Shown one piece after another: positions 8,328 through 14,891 of a DNA stretch of 64,000 nucleotides. The notes under the pieces were generated by a model, which was not told the origin of the DNA, searched no databases, and saw only the letters and a program-made list of their open reading frames with translations. Source of the stretch: Hamadaea flava (GTDB lineage: Bacteria > Actinomycetota > Actinomycetes > Mycobacteriales > Micromonosporaceae). Positions within the stretch are counted from its first letter, which is position 1; every line of letters begins with the position of its first letter. The position numbers and the translations under genes were made by a program. The stretch is taken from assembly GCF_024172085.1 (NCBI RefSeq), contig NZ_JAMZDZ010000001.1, forward strand, positions 372,001 through 436,000, given 5' to 3'.

Positions 8328-8951
8328 ATGAGCGCCCGCGACGACATCCTCGCCCGCATCCACGCCGCCAACACCGGCATCGCCGCTCCCCCGGTTCCCC
8401 GGGACTATCGGCGTACCGGGACTCATGCGCCGGGCGATGCCGAGCTGTTGGAGCTGTTCACCGATCGGCTCGTCGACTACAAAGCCACCGTCGTGCCCTG
8501 CACTCCCGCCACGCTGGCCGCGACGCTCGCCGACATTTGTCGCGACTGGACGGTCGTCGTCCCCGCCGGCTCGGCTTCGTCCGTGCCGGGTGCGGTCGTG
8601 GACGACGGGCTCTCCTACGCCCAGCTCGACGCGCTCGACGCCGTCCTCACCGGCTGCGCCGCCGCCTGCGCCGAAACCGGCACCATCGCCCTCGACGCCG
8701 GCCCCGACCAGGGCCGCCGCGCCGTCACCCTGATCCCCGACCGGCACATCTGCGTCGTCCGCGCCGACCAGGTCGTGCACACCGTGCCCGAACTGCTGGC
8801 CCGGCTGGACCCGACCCGGCCGCTCACCTTCATCAGCGGCCCCTCGGCCACCAGCGACATCGAGCTGCATCGCGTCGAAGGCGTCCACGGGCCGCGTACG
8901 CTGATCGTCGTCCTCGTCACCCTCTCGGGCGGGCTCAGGCGGCGCGCTTGA
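8328..8951 (+). CDS. lutC: Lactate utilization protein C, LUD domain
   Basis: 207 residues, LUD (YkgG/LutC) family. Typical stretches are DWTVVVPAGSASSVPGA, TGCAAACAETGTIALDAG and PLTFISGPSATSDIELHRVEGVHGP. It completes the LutABC lactate oxidation complex. The last 17 bases overlap the 3' end of the converging hydrolase gene, so the two transcripts are antisense at their ends. Confidence 0.92.
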   Translation: MSARDDILARIHAANTGIAAPPVPRDYRRTGTHAPGDAELLELFTDRLVDYKATVVPCTPATLAATLADICRDWTVVVPAGSASSVPGAVVDDGLSYAQLDALDAVLTGCAAACAETGTIALDAGPDQGRRAVTLIPDRHICVVRADQVVHTVPELLARLDPTRPLTFISGPSATSDIELHRVEGVHGPRTLIVVLVTLSGGLRRRA

Positions 8952-9750
8952 GGATCTCGGCGGCGACCCGCTCGGGTACGGCGTCCGGGATCCAGTGGCT
9001 GACCTCGTCCAGCTCGACGAAGGCGTACTCGCCGGTCACGTGGTGGACGCAGGCTTCGGCGGCGGCACGCCCGATCGCGAGGTCGCCGTTGCTCCAGAGG
9101 AACGTCGTCGGTACCGCGACCGGCCCGAGCCGGCCGAAGTCGCCGTGTCCCATCGCGCGGTACCAGTTGAGGCCGCCGGTGAGCCGCTCCCGGTGCAGCA
9201 TCGGTGTCACGTAACGGTCGATGCGACCCTCCGGGCAGCCGAGGAACATCGCCCTGATCCGCAGCCCGTCGTCCTCGAGGAGGACGTCCTCGGCTTCCGG
9301 CGTACGAAAGAAGTCCATGTAGGACGATCGTTCCCGCTGGTCGTCGTCGTGGCGGATGGCGCGCCCGAACGCGGCCACGTGCGGCACCGACAAAGCGGTG
9401 AGGGTCCGGGTGCGCTCGGGATGGCGGGCCGCCAGGTACCAGCCGATCGCCGCGCCCCAATCGTGCCCGACGACGTGCGCCGCCCCGACCCCGAGCTTGT
9501 CAAGCACGGCCAGCGCGTCGGCGGCGATCTCACTGATCTGGTACGCCTCCACCGCCGCCGGCCGGGCACCCGGGGCGTACCCGCGTTGATCGAAGGCGAC
9601 CGTACGCAGGCCGGCGTCCCGAAGGGTCGGCGTGACGAGGTCCCACTCCCCTTTGTGCTGGGGGAACCCGTGGAGCAGCAGCACGACCGGACCGTCTTCC
9701 GGGCCGTCCACGTCGGCGTCGAAGGTCATTCCGCGTACGTCGAACTTCAC
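8935..9750 (-). CDS. Alpha/beta hydrolase, epoxide-hydrolase/haloalkane-dehalogenase-like
   Basis: 271 residues from a GTG overlapping the stop of the WD40 gene by 4 bases (GTGA). Features: oxyanion segment LLLHGFPQHKGEW, nucleophile elbow VVGHDWGAAIGW with Asp as nucleophile, SNGDLAIG for the acid and EVSHWIPD for the catalytic His. An Asp nucleophile in GHDWG is typical of epoxide hydrolases. It is the last gene of the operon 14891-8935; the coupling to the trypsin/NTPase/WD40 gene suggests joint function, either an extra effector or a passenger. This link is inference. Confidence 0.85.
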   Translation of the reverse strand: MKFDVRGMTFDADVDGPEDGPVVLLLHGFPQHKGEWDLVTPTLRDAGLRTVAFDQRGYAPGARPAAVEAYQISEIAADALAVLDKLGVGAAHVVGHDWGAAIGWYLAARHPERTRTLTALSVPHVAAFGRAIRHDDDQRERSSYMDFFRTPEAEDVLLEDDGLRIRAMFLGCPEGRIDRYVTPMLHRERLTGGLNWYRAMGHGDFGRLGPVAVPTTFLWSNGDLAIGRAAAEACVHHVTGEYAFVELDEVSHWIPDAVPERVAAEILKRAA

Positions 9751-12700
9751 GCGACGATCTCCCATCGGGTCAGGCCGAGCGCGGCCGAGATGCTGACGAG
9801 CGCCGAAGTGCCGGGGTCCGCCGCGATCGTCCGCAACGGCTCGGTCCGGGCGTACGCGAGCGGCCACCCGTCCGTCGTCCAGGTACGCACCCCGTCGTCG
9901 CCGGAGGTCACCAGCACGTCGCCGGACAGGGCGATCCCGGTGATCGGGCTCGGCGAGGTGGCGACGATCCGCTGACCGCCGGAACCCACATCCCAGCGCC
10001 GGATCTGCCCCGCCGCATCCCCGGAGTACGCGTACCCGCCGTCCAGGACGACCGCCCAGACCGGCTCCTCCCCCGGATGCACCCGGATCGGCTCAGCTCC
10101 CTCGCGCAGAATGCGTACGCTCCCCGACATGTGACCGGTGACGACGAGGCCGTCGTCGGCGACGGCGACCGCCGTGACCGAGTCACCCACCCGCGCCTGA
10201 GGGATGTTCTCCCACCAGCCGGAGCCGGGCGCGGACCGCCAGACCGATACGCCGCCCCGGCCGCCGCCCGCGGCGAGACGACCGCCGTCCGGCGAGGCGG
10301 CCAGCAACCGGCCGCCCTCGTGCCACAGCGCCGGGCCGGCGACTGTGCCGCTGCCGCCTGCTTCCGCCATTGGGGTCCCAGTGGCAGTCCGGAGGTCGGG
10401 GAAGATCACGCGGCCGTCGTCGAGCAGCGCCGCGATCCCGGAACGCGTGACGGCCACCCCGTGAATGGGCTGCCCCAAATCGACGGTCAGGTCACCCGGC
10501 CGGAGCTCGTCACCCGACCACAGCCCGTCACCCGACCAGATCTGGAGCCGACCGTCCTGTCGCGCGCCCACGACCAACCCGCCGGTCGGCCCGCCGCCCA
10601 ACTCGTCCCCGGTCGGCCGGTCCCCTGCTGATCTTGAATGGTTGGCGTCGCCAGGGCGACGATTTCTGTTCAAGGTCAACTCCGCCGCACCCACGCCGGA
10701 GCCCGCGCCGCCCGCGACAGCGGATCCGCCGCCAGAACCGGCAGCGCCGAAGCCCGCACCGGTGGATCCGCCAGCAGAGTCCAGGCTGGCGGAGCCGATC
10801 GCGACAGCGGTCCACGGAGCGTCACGAGCGGCGAGCCCATCCCCCGCAAGGTCCCAGACGTGCACCAGTTCCTCGGCGGCTGTCGACATGACCAGCGACC
10901 CGTCCGGGCTGACCGCGACGCAGCGTACCGGCTGCCGGTGCCGCCCGAGGACGCGCCCGGGCACGACATCGCCGTCCAAGGTCCGCACCGCCAGCGCCGA
11001 CGAAGCCGCCGCAGAAGCCGCCGCAGAAGCCGCCGCAGAAGCCGCCGCAGAAGCCGCGGCCGAGGAGGAGGAGGAGTCCAGGGGCCAAGCCATGACCTGC
11101 CCGTCCCCGCCACCGGAGAGCACCGAGCGGCCGTCCGGGGTCACGGTCACGCTCCACACCTGGCCCTCGTGCTGCCCGAGCGGCCGCCCCGACTGATCCG
11201 GCGCGACGGACGGATCTGACGGGCCGCCGAGCGGGAACGCGAAGACCTGCCCGATGTACGTGCCCACGATGACCGTGGACCCGTCGGGCGTGATCGTCAT
11301 CGCCTCGGCCCAGCGTTTGACCCGGCCGAGGACCCAGCCGGTGCCCGAGGCCGGCGCCCAGACGCGTACGGTGTCGTCTCGGCCGCCGCTGATCAGCAGG
11401 TTCCCATCCGGGCTGAACACCAGCGACCGGACTTGGTCGTCGTGCTCGCCGATCACGGTCGCCTGGCCGGTGGCGAGGTTCCAGAGGCGTACCTGGCCGT
11501 CCTGGCCGCCGGTGGCGATGCGGTCGCCGCTGGGGGCGTACGCGACGGCCCAGATGTGCCCGGCGCTGTTGATGAACGGCGGATCGTCCAGCGAGTAGCC
11601 GTCGGCGTCGAGCCGCCAGCGTCGCACCGTCTTGTCGGCGGCGCAGGTCGCCATCTCGTCGCCGTGCGGGCTCACGGAGAAGGCCCGGATCGCGCCGAAG
11701 TGGCGGCCGATGTCGACCGCTCGCCCGTCGTCGAGGTCCCAGCGGCGTACGCGGCCGTCGTCGTCGCCGGTGAGGACCTGGGCCGGCCCGAGGAACGCCG
11801 CTGCCCAGACCTGTCGGCTGCCCGAGTCCACGGTACGCGTCAAGGACCGGCTGGCGCGTCCGGTCGTCGACACCGCGACGATCGCCGGGGCCTGCCGGGC
11901 CGCGACCGCCGCCCATCGGGCCGCCGGGAGTCCGGTGTGGACAGCCGTCAGCCCGAGCTGTGCGGCCGGCCGGACCAGCGGGGCTCGCAGTGCGGGACTG
12001 GCGATCTCCAGCACTCGCGACGCCGACCGGACCTCCGCCGACGTGGCCGCCCCCGTACGCAGCATCGGCCGGACCGCGTCCACCCCGAGGACGTCGATCG
12101 CACTGGCCAGCCAGCCCGGGTCGGCCAGGAACCCGAGGTCACCCCCGGCGGCCATGACCGCCCAGGGCCGGTGTTCGAGCAGGTGCCGAGGGGTGTCTGC
12201 GGGCCAGCCCCGGGCCGCCCAGGAGTCCGCCCATGCCGCGACCTGCGCCGTGAACGGCGCGAGGCGTACCGGGCCGAAGACGGTGTCCCGGCAGGTGTCC
12301 AGCAGCGTCTGGTGGGCGAACCGCCAGCCGCCGGTGTCCTCCAGCACCCGCCCGAACCGCGCCCGCAGCAGCGCCTCCACGTCGAACGCCGAAACCTCCG
12401 CCGCCGGGCCCCCGAACGCCGAAACCCCCGCCGAACCCGCGAACCGCGAAGACGCCGAACCATCGAACCCCGATGGCGGCGCGGCCCCACTGGACGTGTC
12501 CAAGGGCGAGCTGAGAACGGACGCCAGCTCGTCGGCGGTCAACGGACCTGCCGCCGCGGTCAGCACGCCAAGAACTCCGCGCGTCGTAGCGTCCGCGGCC
12601 AGCTCGCGCAGATCGGACTCGGCCCGCTGCTCGACCCGCTGCGCCTCGACGACCTGGGTCAGCTCGGCCGGATACAGCGTCCACAGCGGATGGTCCGGGT

Positions 12701-13916
12701 GCACGTCGTCGGGCACCGGCGTCTTGCGCCCGGTCACCAGCACGTGCGTGAAGAACGGCGTACGCGACGGCAGCAGGGAGGCGACGCTTCGCTGCCCGGC
12801 GGGCCGGAGGTCTTCGTCGAGTCCGTCGACGATCAGCAGCAGATGGCGTTCGAGACGTTCCGCGCGGTCGGCTGCCCGGGTCCACAGGTCGGCGAACGCC
12901 GCCGCGTCCGGCTCGATAGGCGGGTCCTCACCGAGCAATGCGGCGAGCTGTCCCGTGACGGCCGCGAGGAACCGGTCCGCGCCGGCGTCGAGGGCGCGCC
13001 GCTGCAACAGGTACGCCACGCAGTCGACCCCGTCGGGCGGGCTCGCGGCCAGGTGGGCGGCCAGCGCAGTCTTCCCGGCCCAGGGCGATCCCACTACACG
13101 CCGATAGCCGGGCGAGCCGGTGGCGAAGGCGCGCAGCGCCGCGAGGTCGGCGGCCCGGTCCAGCAGGTCCGGCGTACGCCCCGCGACTTCGGCGATGACG
13201 GCTTGGTAGCCGGCCCGCCGCACGGTCGCGGGCAGACGGACGAGGGTGGCCGGGGTGCAGCCCAGTTCCCGCCACCACAGGCGGGCGTTGGGCAGCCGGT
13301 CGAGGTGCGTGATCGGGGTGGCGGTCAGCGCCGACTCCCCCGCTCGCGGCTGGTGCTCGGTGACGACGCCGAGCACGATCTCGTTCCCGGCCGGACCCGT
13401 CACGACCGCGCTGCCGGAGACGCCGGACCATTGGCTGCGCCCGAGCGCCTCCTGCTGCGGCGGGAGCGGCCGGGGCGTACTGGTCACCCGGAAGGTCAGC
13501 AGGTCGGCGACCCGCTGGTCGGCGGTCGGGATCTCGCCGTCGAGCTGCGCGGTGTCTCGCGTCGAACGTCCGTCCGCCGTCCGGCGTTCCTGAAAGTGCG
13601 GGTAGCCGATCGCCCGGCAGTCGCGGATCACCGCGGCGGCTTCCCGGTCGACCGAGCCGAACCGGAGCGGCCGCACGCCGGGCAGCGGCGTCGCCAGCTC
13701 CAGCAGCGCCAGGTCGGCGCGCTCGCCGCCCAGCAGCAGGACCAGCGCCGGATGCTCCACCTTGTCCACGCCGCGCACGGTGACGGCGCCGTCCGCGGTC
13801 ACGGTGTGCGCCGCGGTCAGCACGAGCCGGTCGGTCACGAGCAGGCCCGAGCCGCTGATCCAGCCGCCGGGACCTTCGCAGAGGACCTCGACGGCACGAT
13901 CGGCGTACCCGGTCAC
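9747..13916 (-). CDS. Trypsin-like protease / STAND-type P-loop NTPase / WD40 protein
   Basis: 1389 residues. Residues 1-215 form a chymotrypsin-fold protease with LTAAHTV (His37), RADLALLEL (Asp68) and SGVSGSAV (Ser167), and no signal peptide. Residues about 255-460 form a P-loop NTPase with Walker A GSPWAGKT (276-283) and Walker B LLLIVDGLDED (364-369), close to STAND/NACHT-like ATPases. From about 690 to the end I count roughly 14 WD40 blades (RRWDLDD, RLWNLAT, HVWDLAG, IRRWDVG and others), enough for two seven-blade propellers. Low-complexity Ser/Ala and Gly inserts interrupt the region. It follows the Trypco2 gene with a GTGA overlap. Predicted: the propellers sense, the NTPase switches, the protease cuts a cytoplasmic target. 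Known precedents are the trypsin-linked NTPase conflict systems of multicellular bacteria. Confidence 0.88.
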   Translation of the reverse strand: MTGYADRAVEVLCEGPGGWISGSGLLVTDRLVLTAAHTVTADGAVTVRGVDKVEHPALVLLLGGERADLALLELATPLPGVRPLRFGSVDREAAAVIRDCRAIGYPHFQERRTADGRSTRDTAQLDGEIPTADQRVADLLTFRVTSTPRPLPPQQEALGRSQWSGVSGSAVVTGPAGNEIVLGVVTEHQPRAGESALTATPITHLDRLPNARLWWRELGCTPATLVRLPATVRRAGYQAVIAEVAGRTPDLLDRAADLAALRAFATGSPGYRRVVGSPWAGKTALAAHLAASPPDGVDCVAYLLQRRALDAGADRFLAAVTGQLAALLGEDPPIEPDAAAFADLWTRAADRAERLERHLLLIVDGLDEDLRPAGQRSVASLLPSRTPFFTHVLVTGRKTPVPDDVHPDHPLWTLYPAELTQVVEAQRVEQRAESDLRELAADATTRGVLGVLTAAAGPLTADELASVLSSPLDTSSGAAPPSGFDGSASSRFAGSAGVSAFGGPAAEVSAFDVEALLRARFGRVLEDTGGWRFAHQTLLDTCRDTVFGPVRLAPFTAQVAAWADSWAARGWPADTPRHLLEHRPWAVMAAGGDLGFLADPGWLASAIDVLGVDAVRPMLRTGAATSAEVRSASRVLEIASPALRAPLVRPAAQLGLTAVHTGLPAARWAAVAARQAPAIVAVSTTGRASRSLTRTVDSGSRQVWAAAFLGPAQVLTGDDDGRVRRWDLDDGRAVDIGRHFGAIRAFSVSPHGDEMATCAADKTVRRWRLDADGYSLDDPPFINSAGHIWAVAYAPSGDRIATGGQDGQVRLWNLATGQATVIGEHDDQVRSLVFSPDGNLLISGGRDDTVRVWAPASGTGWVLGRVKRWAEAMTITPDGSTVIVGTYIGQVFAFPLGGPSDPSVAPDQSGRPLGQHEGQVWSVTVTPDGRSVLSGGGDGQVMAWPLDSSSSSAAASAAASAAASAAASAAASSALAVRTLDGDVVPGRVLGRHRQPVRCVAVSPDGSLVMSTAAEELVHVWDLAGDGLAARDAPWTAVAIGSASLDSAGGSTGAGFGAAGSGGGSAVAGGAGSGVGAAELTLNRNRRPGDANHSRSAGDRPTGDELGGGPTGGLVVGARQDGRLQIWSGDGLWSGDELRPGDLTVDLGQPIHGVAVTRSGIAALLDDGRVIFPDLRTATGTPMAEAGGSGTVAGPALWHEGGRLLAASPDGGRLAAGGGRGGVSVWRSAPGSGWWENIPQARVGDSVTAVAVADDGLVVTGHMSGSVRILREGAEPIRVHPGEEPVWAVVLDGGYAYSGDAAGQIRRWDVGSGGQRIVATSPSPITGIALSGDVLVTSGDDGVRTWTTDGWPLAYARTEPLRTIAADPGTSALVSISAALGLTRWEIVA
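11002..11061. repeat. 12-bp tandem repeat inside the WD40 region
   Basis: Four perfect copies and one partial copy of GAAGCCGCCGCA on the + strand, read on the - strand as repeated Ser-Ala-Ala-Ala. It lies in the loop after the sixth WD40 blade. Because the unit is 12 bp, copy-number change keeps the frame. Confidence 0.9.
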
Positions 13917-14218
13917 GCGGGTTTCTCCAGGCCACGTGAGCCCACCTTGATCGGGAGGCCGTCCGCGTCGACCGGCGGCTCCAGCACGATGGTCACCTTC
14001 TGCACCGACTCGCTCGCGACTCCGGCCTGCCCGCCCAGCTCCACCACCCAGAACCGCACCCCGCCCCGCGCCTCCGCGCTGCGGGTCACGCCCACCTGGA
14101 ACTCCAGCGTCACCTGGCCCACCGGGAACTGCACCGGCGCGTCCACCGCCTCCGCACTCGCCCGCGCGAGTTCCGCGCGCAAGGCCTGGACGACGTCGAC
14201 GAGCCCGATCTGCGACAT
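13913..14218 (-). CDS. Trypco2 (trypsin-co-occurring domain 2) protein
   Basis: 101 residues. The pattern IGLVDVVQALRAELARA, VGQVTLEFQVGVTR, GVRFWVVELGG and VQKVTIVLEP is what I recognise as Trypco2, a small beta-rich domain found next to trypsin-like proteases in predicted conflict systems. I take the ATG at 14218, which has GGAAGG 9 bases upstream; the ATG at 14227 directly abuts that site. The stop overlaps the start of the protease gene (GTGA), so the two proteins are probably made in step. Likely role: adaptor or regulator of the protease; this is inferred from family context, not shown. Confidence 0.8.
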   Translation of the reverse strand: MSQIGLVDVVQALRAELARASAEAVDAPVQFPVGQVTLEFQVGVTRSAEARGGVRFWVVELGGQAGVASESVQKVTIVLEPPVDADGLPIKVGSRGLEKPA

Positions 14219-14240
14219 GCGGACCATCCTTCCCGGCCGC

Positions 14241-14891
14241 TCAGACCATGCGCAAGACCGTGGTGTGCTTCAGGTCCGCGTCCTCCAGGTCCTCATTCAC
14301 CGGTACGCGGAAAGCAGCGACCTGCTCGAAGCCGGTGGTCGGGCGGTAAGCGCGTCCGGGGTCCCCGACCAGCACCAGCGCCCCGCGTTCGTGCTGCCGT
14401 CGCAGGAACCCGAGCATCGCGTTCGCCATGTCGCGGCTGTAGAAGACGTCCCCGGCCAGCACGACGTCGGCGTCCGGGACGGGCAGTTCGGGCGGCGTAC
14501 TCAGCAGATCGCCGAGCGCCCGGTCGACGGTCACCCCGTTCAGCTCCGCGTTGAGCGCGATCGCCGCGTCGGCGTACTCGTCGATCTCATTGGCGACGAC
14601 GCTGCGCGCGCCGGACCGCGCGGCCGCGATGGCGACGAGCCCGCCGCCGGCGGCCAGATCGAGGACGGACTTGCCGGCCACCAGCTCGGGATGGTCGAGG
14701 AGGTGGCGGGCGAGGCCCTGGCCGCCGGCCCAGGCGAAGGCCCAGAACGGCGGCGGGAGTCCCTTCCGCCCGGTGACCTGCTCCATCAGCTCCCACAGCG
14801 GGATGGCCTCGGTGGCCTGCCGGAGCTTCAGCTCGGGCAGGAACGGCAGCCCCAGCGGTTCGGTGTGGGCCCGGACGAAGTCGATCAGCAC
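14241..14891 (-). CDS. Class I SAM methyltransferase, ETFB-lysine/protein methyltransferase-like
   Basis: 216 residues. SAM-binding motif I is VLDLAAGGGLVAIAAA, the acidic residue after strand 2 is in VANEIDEYADAAI, and DVVLAGDVFYSRDMA resembles motif IV of the METTL20/ETFB lysine methyltransferase group. The GTG start at 14891 has TAGGGT 8 bases upstream and no Shine-Dalgarno, implying a leaderless mRNA. It is first in the operon that continues, after a 22-base gap, into Trypco2. Whether it modifies a component of the conflict system or merely shares the promoter is open. Confidence 0.8.
   Translation of the reverse strand: MLIDFVRAHTEPLGLPFLPELKLRQATEAIPLWELMEQVTGRKGLPPPFWAFAWAGGQGLARHLLDHPELVAGKSVLDLAAGGGLVAIAAARSGARSVVANEIDEYADAAIALNAELNGVTVDRALGDLLSTPPELPVPDADVVLAGDVFYSRDMANAMLGFLRRQHERGALVLVGDPGRAYRPTTGFEQVAAFRVPVNEDLEDADLKHTTVLRMV

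Follow-up and report, generated by a model that had tools for sequence, protein, structure and literature searches.

A Trypco2 and trypsin-STAND-WD40 gene pair as a probable insertion into a methyltransferase-hydrolase operon of Hamadaea flava

The stretch of DNA analyzed here (64,000 nucleotides, hereafter called the window) covers 372 to 436 kb of the 8.86-Mb single-contig chromosome of Hamadaea flava. It includes four genes so closely packed on one strand that a first-pass annotation had read them as a single conflict system, which raises the question of whether the four act together or owe their order to some other event. The layout was confirmed by a sequence check: all four genes lie on the minus strand at the coordinates first given, the Trypco2 and protease genes and likewise the protease and hydrolase genes overlap by exactly four bases (GTGA), and exactly 22 bases separate the methyltransferase gene from Trypco2. 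The four genes are as follows.

14241..14891, minus strand: class I SAM methyltransferase (Pfam PrmA/Methyltransf_16; adjoins the hydrolase gene without an insert in two other genomes, G002 and G003); upstream gene of the host operon, outside the proposed inserted unit.
13913..14218, minus strand: Trypco2 protein of 101 amino acids (PF19631); first gene of the proposed inserted unit.
9747..13916, minus strand: trypsin-STAND NTPase-WD40 protein of 1389 amino acids (Pfam, PADLOC, and alignment); second gene of the proposed inserted unit.
8935..9750, minus strand: alpha/beta hydrolase (Pfam Abhydrolase_1 and empty-site synteny); downstream gene of the host operon, outside the proposed inserted unit.

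The protease gene most likely starts at GTG 13916. Trypco2 most likely starts at ATG 14218, and the other in-frame ATG (14227) abuts the ribosome-binding site. The hydrolase gene may start at GTG 9750 or at an in-frame ATG (9765) five codons upstream, and its GHDWG sequence, as judged by eye, is an Asp nucleophile motif.

Domains of the protease-NTPase protein

Pfam returned the families that had been predicted for the two central genes, namely PF19631 for Trypco2 (E = 7e-27) and Trypsin_2 (E = 1e-10) and WD40 (E = 2e-42) for the large protein, which is divided into the following parts.

13287..13916, minus strand: trypsin-like protease domain, residues 1-210 (Trypsin_2 over its cut-off; His37, Asp68, and Ser167; HtrA/Do structures by profile).
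12507..13169, minus strand: STAND-type NTPase, residues about 250-470 (invariant PWxGK and DGLDED; PADLOC STAND_TPR).
9750..11846, minus strand: WD40 propeller region, residues 691-1389, about 14 blades (WD40 match and blade ends).

The protease assignment has several lines of support. The Trypsin_2 match scores 42.5 bits against a cut-off of 27.6, the Pfam Trypsin family is also matched over its cut-off (E = 1e-5), and a profile of the whole protein picks out HtrA/Do proteases of known structure, with a best E of 1e-8 for residues 15-106. The catalytic triad of His37, Asp68, and Ser167 lies at the positions originally proposed and is invariant in an alignment of the window protein with 19 relatives. 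The P-loop (PWxGK) and the Walker B motif (DGLDED) are invariant in the same alignment. The NTPase is real, as had been claimed, and is matched by the PADLOC STAND_TPR profile (E = 7e-46); its scores for named Pfam clades fall under the cut-offs (NACHT, 20.8 bits against 26.7; AAA_16, 32.0 against 32.6). The estimate of about 14 blades also stands, with blade ends counted by eye in residues 691-1389 and a crude pattern that likewise gives 14, partly from different hits. The reading at the protein level, in which Trypco2 accompanies a fusion of trypsin, NTPase, and WD40 parts with an intact active site, therefore holds.

Two further observations concern this protein. An Ala/Ser-rich low-complexity repeat (AAAS) lies inside the propeller region at residues 948-973 (window positions 10998-11075). 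We also considered a trypsin-type specificity for Arg or Lys, with the C-terminal Arg of Trypco2 serving as a product-like plug, and set it aside because Ser161, rather than Asp, occupies the place six residues before Ser167, which we take as the naive equivalent of position 189.

Empty sites and the origin of the four-gene order

The genome of a second member of the genus (G002) carries, in order, an M4 peptidase gene, two small genes, the methyltransferase and hydrolase genes, LutC, LutA, and a PBP gene, which is the gene order of the window minus the two central genes. The flanking DNA of the two genomes is 88% identical over 4681 alignment columns on one side and 86% identical over 5991 columns on the other, and a search of the G002 genome gave neither a Trypco2 nor a trypsin-STAND match. 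In Hamadaea tsunoensis (G003), the methyltransferase and hydrolase genes adjoin on contig C4, and a Trypco2-protease pair resides on contig C20, between NeuB-type and DinB-type genes. The adjacency of the two enzyme genes in these genomes indicates that a two-gene unit was inserted between two unrelated genes of housekeeping type. Specifically, Trypco2 and the trypsin-STAND-WD40 gene would have entered a pre-existing methyltransferase-hydrolase operon in an ancestor of the window genome and its sister, the metagenome-assembled genome G001. We consider this insertion very probable.

The same empty sites lead us to reject the proposal that all four genes constitute one conflict system, wherein the two enzymes would be accessories of a protease switch, and we leave that proposal next to no probability. 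The single strand, the four-base overlaps, the 22-base gap, and the retention of the order in G001 speak for it, as does the fact that alpha/beta hydrolases accompany VMAP systems, albeit of the caspase type rather than the trypsin type (excerpts of PMC7159879). Beyond the empty sites, the distribution of the enzymes also argues against it. Among 121 genomes of the family, the methyltransferase is present in 92 and the hydrolase in 69 (both in 64), and no Trypco2 match was obtained in 61 of the methyltransferase genomes and 44 of the hydrolase genomes. The two genes lie less than 6 kb apart only in the four genomes of this genus, as judged by eye among the matches listed. Neither enzyme is adjacent in 18 other loci with the two-gene unit, nor in the other 68 trypsin-STAND loci found among the best 80 of 301 relatives. 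Within those best 80 of 301, the methyltransferase occurs only at L146, which belongs to G001, and relatives of the hydrolase occur there and at two further loci, L196 (2.8 kb upstream of Trypco2) and L199 (a locus without trypsin). Among the loci examined, the window and G001 (L124, the same record as L146) are the only ones to hold all four genes together. The methyltransferase and hydrolase would play no part in the switch discussed below, and this locus illustrates that tight gene overlap, from which shared function is usually deduced, can stem from a single insertion that re-uses a start site.

An absence of the unit from G002 could also reflect loss. Under this reading, the genus would have had the four-gene order earlier, followed by precise loss of the unit from G002 and perhaps from G003. 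A tree of the unit is compatible with this history, in that a single genus clade survives an AU test (p-AU 0.325). However, one or two exact losses would be needed, each restoring the order of ribosome-binding site, ATG, and hydrolase start, and G003 would additionally have to hold a copy at another place. Moreover, the units of G003 and Catellatospora are located outside the methyltransferase-hydrolase operon, and the empty genomes fall outside the filled pair by methyltransferase identity to the window (95% for G001, 88% for G002, and 74% for G003). Precise loss is very unlikely on these grounds, and insertion remains the preferred history. Horizontal transfer between Hamadaea and Catellatospora, as might be read from the shape of the tree, was not retained, given the outcome of the same AU test.

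The two ends of the unit can be located as follows.

14227..14234, minus strand: ribosome-binding site GGGAAGGA, the same as that of the hydrolase gene in the empty site; the left junction would lie between this site and the ATG.
9747..9750, minus strand: right junction GTGA, where the protease stop codon overlaps the hydrolase start codon.

In the empty sites, a stop codon, the ribosome-binding site, an ATG, and the hydrolase gene follow one another, and in the window the same stop codon and ribosome-binding site now precede the ATG of Trypco2. The hydrolase start codon is ATG in the empty sites and a GTG within the protease stop in the window. The sequence before the Trypco2 ATG is GGCAAGAT in loci that hold only the unit (G003, G132, and G128), and the host carries GGGAAGGAT. 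Because a stretch is shared by the host and these loci, the left crossover is placed between that stretch and the ATG, with no exact base assigned. About 60 upstream bases that are common to G132 and G128 are missing from the window, which suggests that the unit probably exchanged its own promoter for that of the host operon. Such an insertion would have kept the operon readable, with Trypco2 behind the old ribosome-binding site of the hydrolase gene and the hydrolase now starting in the GTGA overlap with the protease stop.

Other genomes are consistent with a mobile unit. Between G132 and G128, the unit is 95.6% identical over 4031 bp, and the flanks compared (3 to 7 kb) have no stretch in common by blastn at E ≤ 1e-10. 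At the same threshold, G079 and G060 share 4394 bp at 91.7% and a 126-bp piece (82.5%) slightly further upstream, and no other flank. Near-identical copies are thus found in differing contexts whose flanking DNA matches barely or not at all, and it seems that the two genes move together as one block. No mobility gene was seen inside the unit, and a Mutator-family transposase accounts for 3 of 95 neighbor proteins of its loci. For the Catellatospora copy in G132, no clean empty site was found, its flanks having only partial matches in other genomes. The window genome also carries a second Trypco2-trypsin-STAND copy (L129, G000 1.962-1.978 Mb), about 36% identical, for which a Mutator-family transposase is the next upstream gene called.

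The Trypco2 partner and the exchange of terminal domains

To examine the association of Trypco2 with the protease, we used the best 80 of 301 relatives from a scan of GTDB species genomes with a trypsin-STAND profile, 69 with a trypsin domain and 11 without. The assignment of the window protein to Trypco2 is secure (93.9 bits against a curated cut-off of 24.2). Trypco2 lies directly upstream in 59 of the 69 trypsin-STAND loci, is placed elsewhere in the locus in four, and is missing from six. Spacing from the end of the Trypco2 match to the start of the trypsin match in the 59 loci ranges from -13 to +202 bases. No Trypco2 match adjoins any of the 11 trypsin-less relatives, in flanks of up to 8 kb that are shorter at contig ends. 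Within the Micromonosporaceae, 21 of 26 full-length trypsin-STAND matches have Trypco2 no more than 400 bases upstream. The first-pass annotation had made its system reading depend on homologues of the NTPase gene occurring with Trypco2 and the hydrolase; they keep the former and lack the latter, which counts half against that reading, and the trypsin domain, its other point, has sequence support. Trypco2 is a dedicated partner of the trypsin domain, tied to that domain itself and not to the NTPase that carries it, and would serve it as a regulator, adaptor, or substrate, a role that the compact two-gene unit allows to be tested directly. In three Pseudonocardia loci (L201, L202, and L213), Trypco2 is found about 4.4-4.5 kb downstream of the start of the trypsin domain rather than upstream.

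An AlphaFold model of Trypco2 built from 78 sequences (pLDDT 78, against 61 from 29 sequences) has one helix and three main strands. A Foldseek search of the PDB with this model returned no match at E ≤ 0.001, and a profile search gave a single match with E = 0.8. The last residue is basic in 47 of 78 aligned Trypco2 sequences (44 Arg and 3 Lys, against a background of 11% for the two residues), and 36 of the 78 end in Glu-Arg. For 51 of the 59 loci, an Arg or Lys ending was counted by distance to the trypsin match, and it occurs in 24 of 33 at 12 bases or fewer, 8 of 10 at 13-40 bases, and 4 of 8 beyond 40 bases. The Glu-Arg ending may be a property of the protein itself or a by-product of a ribosome-binding site that serves the gene downstream.

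Relatives of the NTPase carry other parts at both ends. Among 10 N-termini of trypsin-less relatives, one combines SEFIR/TIR with NNH1 (L188), one has NNH1 (L173), one has an HTH that barely exceeds the Pfam cut-off (L225), and one has a second NTPase, NB-ARC-like, that narrowly misses it (L221); the best match among the other six is E = 0.047. The N-terminus of the trypsin-less relative L222 (L222:7137-8099), for which the Pfam scan gave no match, resembles Cap4/DUF4297-type nucleases by eye. At the opposite end, 17 C-termini of trypsin proteins outside the group of the window include WD40 in two (L150 of Kribbella and L152 of Actinopolymorpha), TPR in three (one under the cut-off), another weak family in one, and nothing in 11. 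In a midpoint-rooted tree, the group of the window and L150-L152 form one side of a 100/100 branch, and no WD40 was found in the 9 of 18 rows scanned on the other side. From tree position and C-terminal scans together, WD40 seems to be characteristic of a single clade. This exchange of N- and C-termini on one NTPase is as would be expected for swappable effectors and sensors.

The unit has been under purifying selection since the window genome and G001 split. The dN/dS values for this pair are 0.117 for trypsin, 0.100 for STAND, 0.338 for the middle region, and 0.238 for WD40, and 0.152 for Trypco2, 0.130 for the methyltransferase, 0.205 for the hydrolase, and 0.097 for the next gene. The rate for the propeller is thus roughly double that of the catalytic domains, which can be simple drift too. 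The sister protease gene of G001 (L124:3004-7008) is interrupted in the propeller by a single in-frame stop (codon 1253), and so this copy may be decaying or the metagenome-assembled genome may contain an error.

A proposed switch and its known relatives

Given this architecture, we propose that the propeller would sense a trigger, whereupon the STAND NTPase, as in its family, would exchange nucleotide and oligomerize. Oligomerization would activate the N-terminal trypsin domains, whose active site is intact in sequence, and the activated protease would cut a host or invader protein, probably leading to cell death or growth arrest. We lean toward regarding the unit as such an NLR-like, immune-type protease switch, and a role in conflict or defense is suggested by analogy with related systems. 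Counting against this explanation are the six trypsin-STAND loci without Trypco2, the missing PDB match for the modeled fold of Trypco2, the chance of simple drift in the propeller, the in-frame stop in G001, and the neighborhood count given below. Taken as a whole, insertion of a unit that is an NLR-type switch is the best explanation for this locus, and a fairly likely one.

STAND switches can also be regulatory, for which AfsR/MalT-type regulators are the model, and the trypsin domain might then cut a host regulator in regulation or development rather than in immunity. The neighborhood fits this alternative, as PADLOC matches at E ≤ 1e-15 number at most 4 among 95 neighbors of the 18 loci, and control regions of the family, where 34 PADLOC families are seen, yield no fewer than 4 matching proteins out of 94 (the count for the most frequent family alone), and there is no enrichment. 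The HTH of the trypsin-less relative L225 points the same way. The patchy presence, varied locations, and block movement of the unit suit conflict genes better, as does the SEFIR/TIR domain of L188, with none of these being decisive. We judge a regulatory switch to be unlikely, if far from negligible. A more elaborate version of the immune switch is decidedly less probable still. In this version, a stand-alone mobile unit would use Trypco2 as the substrate or plug of the protease, swap its WD40 sensor for repeats of other kinds and vice versa, and need no mobility genes to spread, inserting where a ribosome-binding site meets a start codon in a host operon and borrowing the host promoter. The point behind the substrate or plug idea is the Glu-Arg or other basic last residue of many Trypco2 copies. 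We return, then, to the simpler immune-type switch in comparing the unit with known systems.

Trypco2 is mentioned by Kaur et al. 2020 (PMC7159879) and also appears in PMC10907252, and excerpts of the former place Trypco1 and Trypco2 with trypsin-VMAP in MoxR-vWA ternary systems. The partner in the window is different, being a WD40-bearing STAND NTPase whose motifs are intact. No MoxR, vWA, or VMAP was found in seven window flank proteins or 10 immediate neighbors of five related loci, and for wider neighbors the families listed are 25 of 99. Among the titles and opening lines of abstracts available, we recognized none that describes a Trypco2 and trypsin-STAND unit, an architecture that supplements may list.

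Three other known systems offer parallels, as judged from excerpts of the papers cited. The nuclease-protease pairs of Avs1, Hachiman, and Lamassu (Tuck et al. 2025, PMC12799240) are likewise small operons wherein a separate gene lies upstream of a trypsin domain fused to a defense enzyme, which for Avs1 is a STAND NTPase. In Avs1-type AVAST systems, the upstream gene encodes an MBL-type nuclease, whereas the genes upstream in the window encode Trypco2, a protein of about 100 amino acids for which no enzyme family was found, and the methyltransferase; the PADLOC Avs1b match is weak (E = 0.0012). In CARD-NLR systems such as LypABC (PMC13236601), trypsin-like peptidases work with an NLR-type repeat ATPase to give lysis. 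There, the NLR-like LypB and the trypsin proteins LypA and LypC are distinct polypeptides, whereas the window protein combines the two parts; the Pfam matches listed for the four window proteins include neither a CARD nor an endonuclease. Trypsin-like domains are required for activation or lysis in both of these groups (PMC12799240 and PMC13236601), and trypsin is listed among the effectors of other STAND proteins (PMC8195603). Finally, the STAND_TPR ATPase of PADLOC, a Streptomyces protein with Xre-HTH and TPR parts, belongs by profile to the same NTPase family, with trypsin replacing the HTH and WD40 replacing the TPR in the window protein. The two-gene unit is built like NLR-type sensors, and by analogy it may work as they do.
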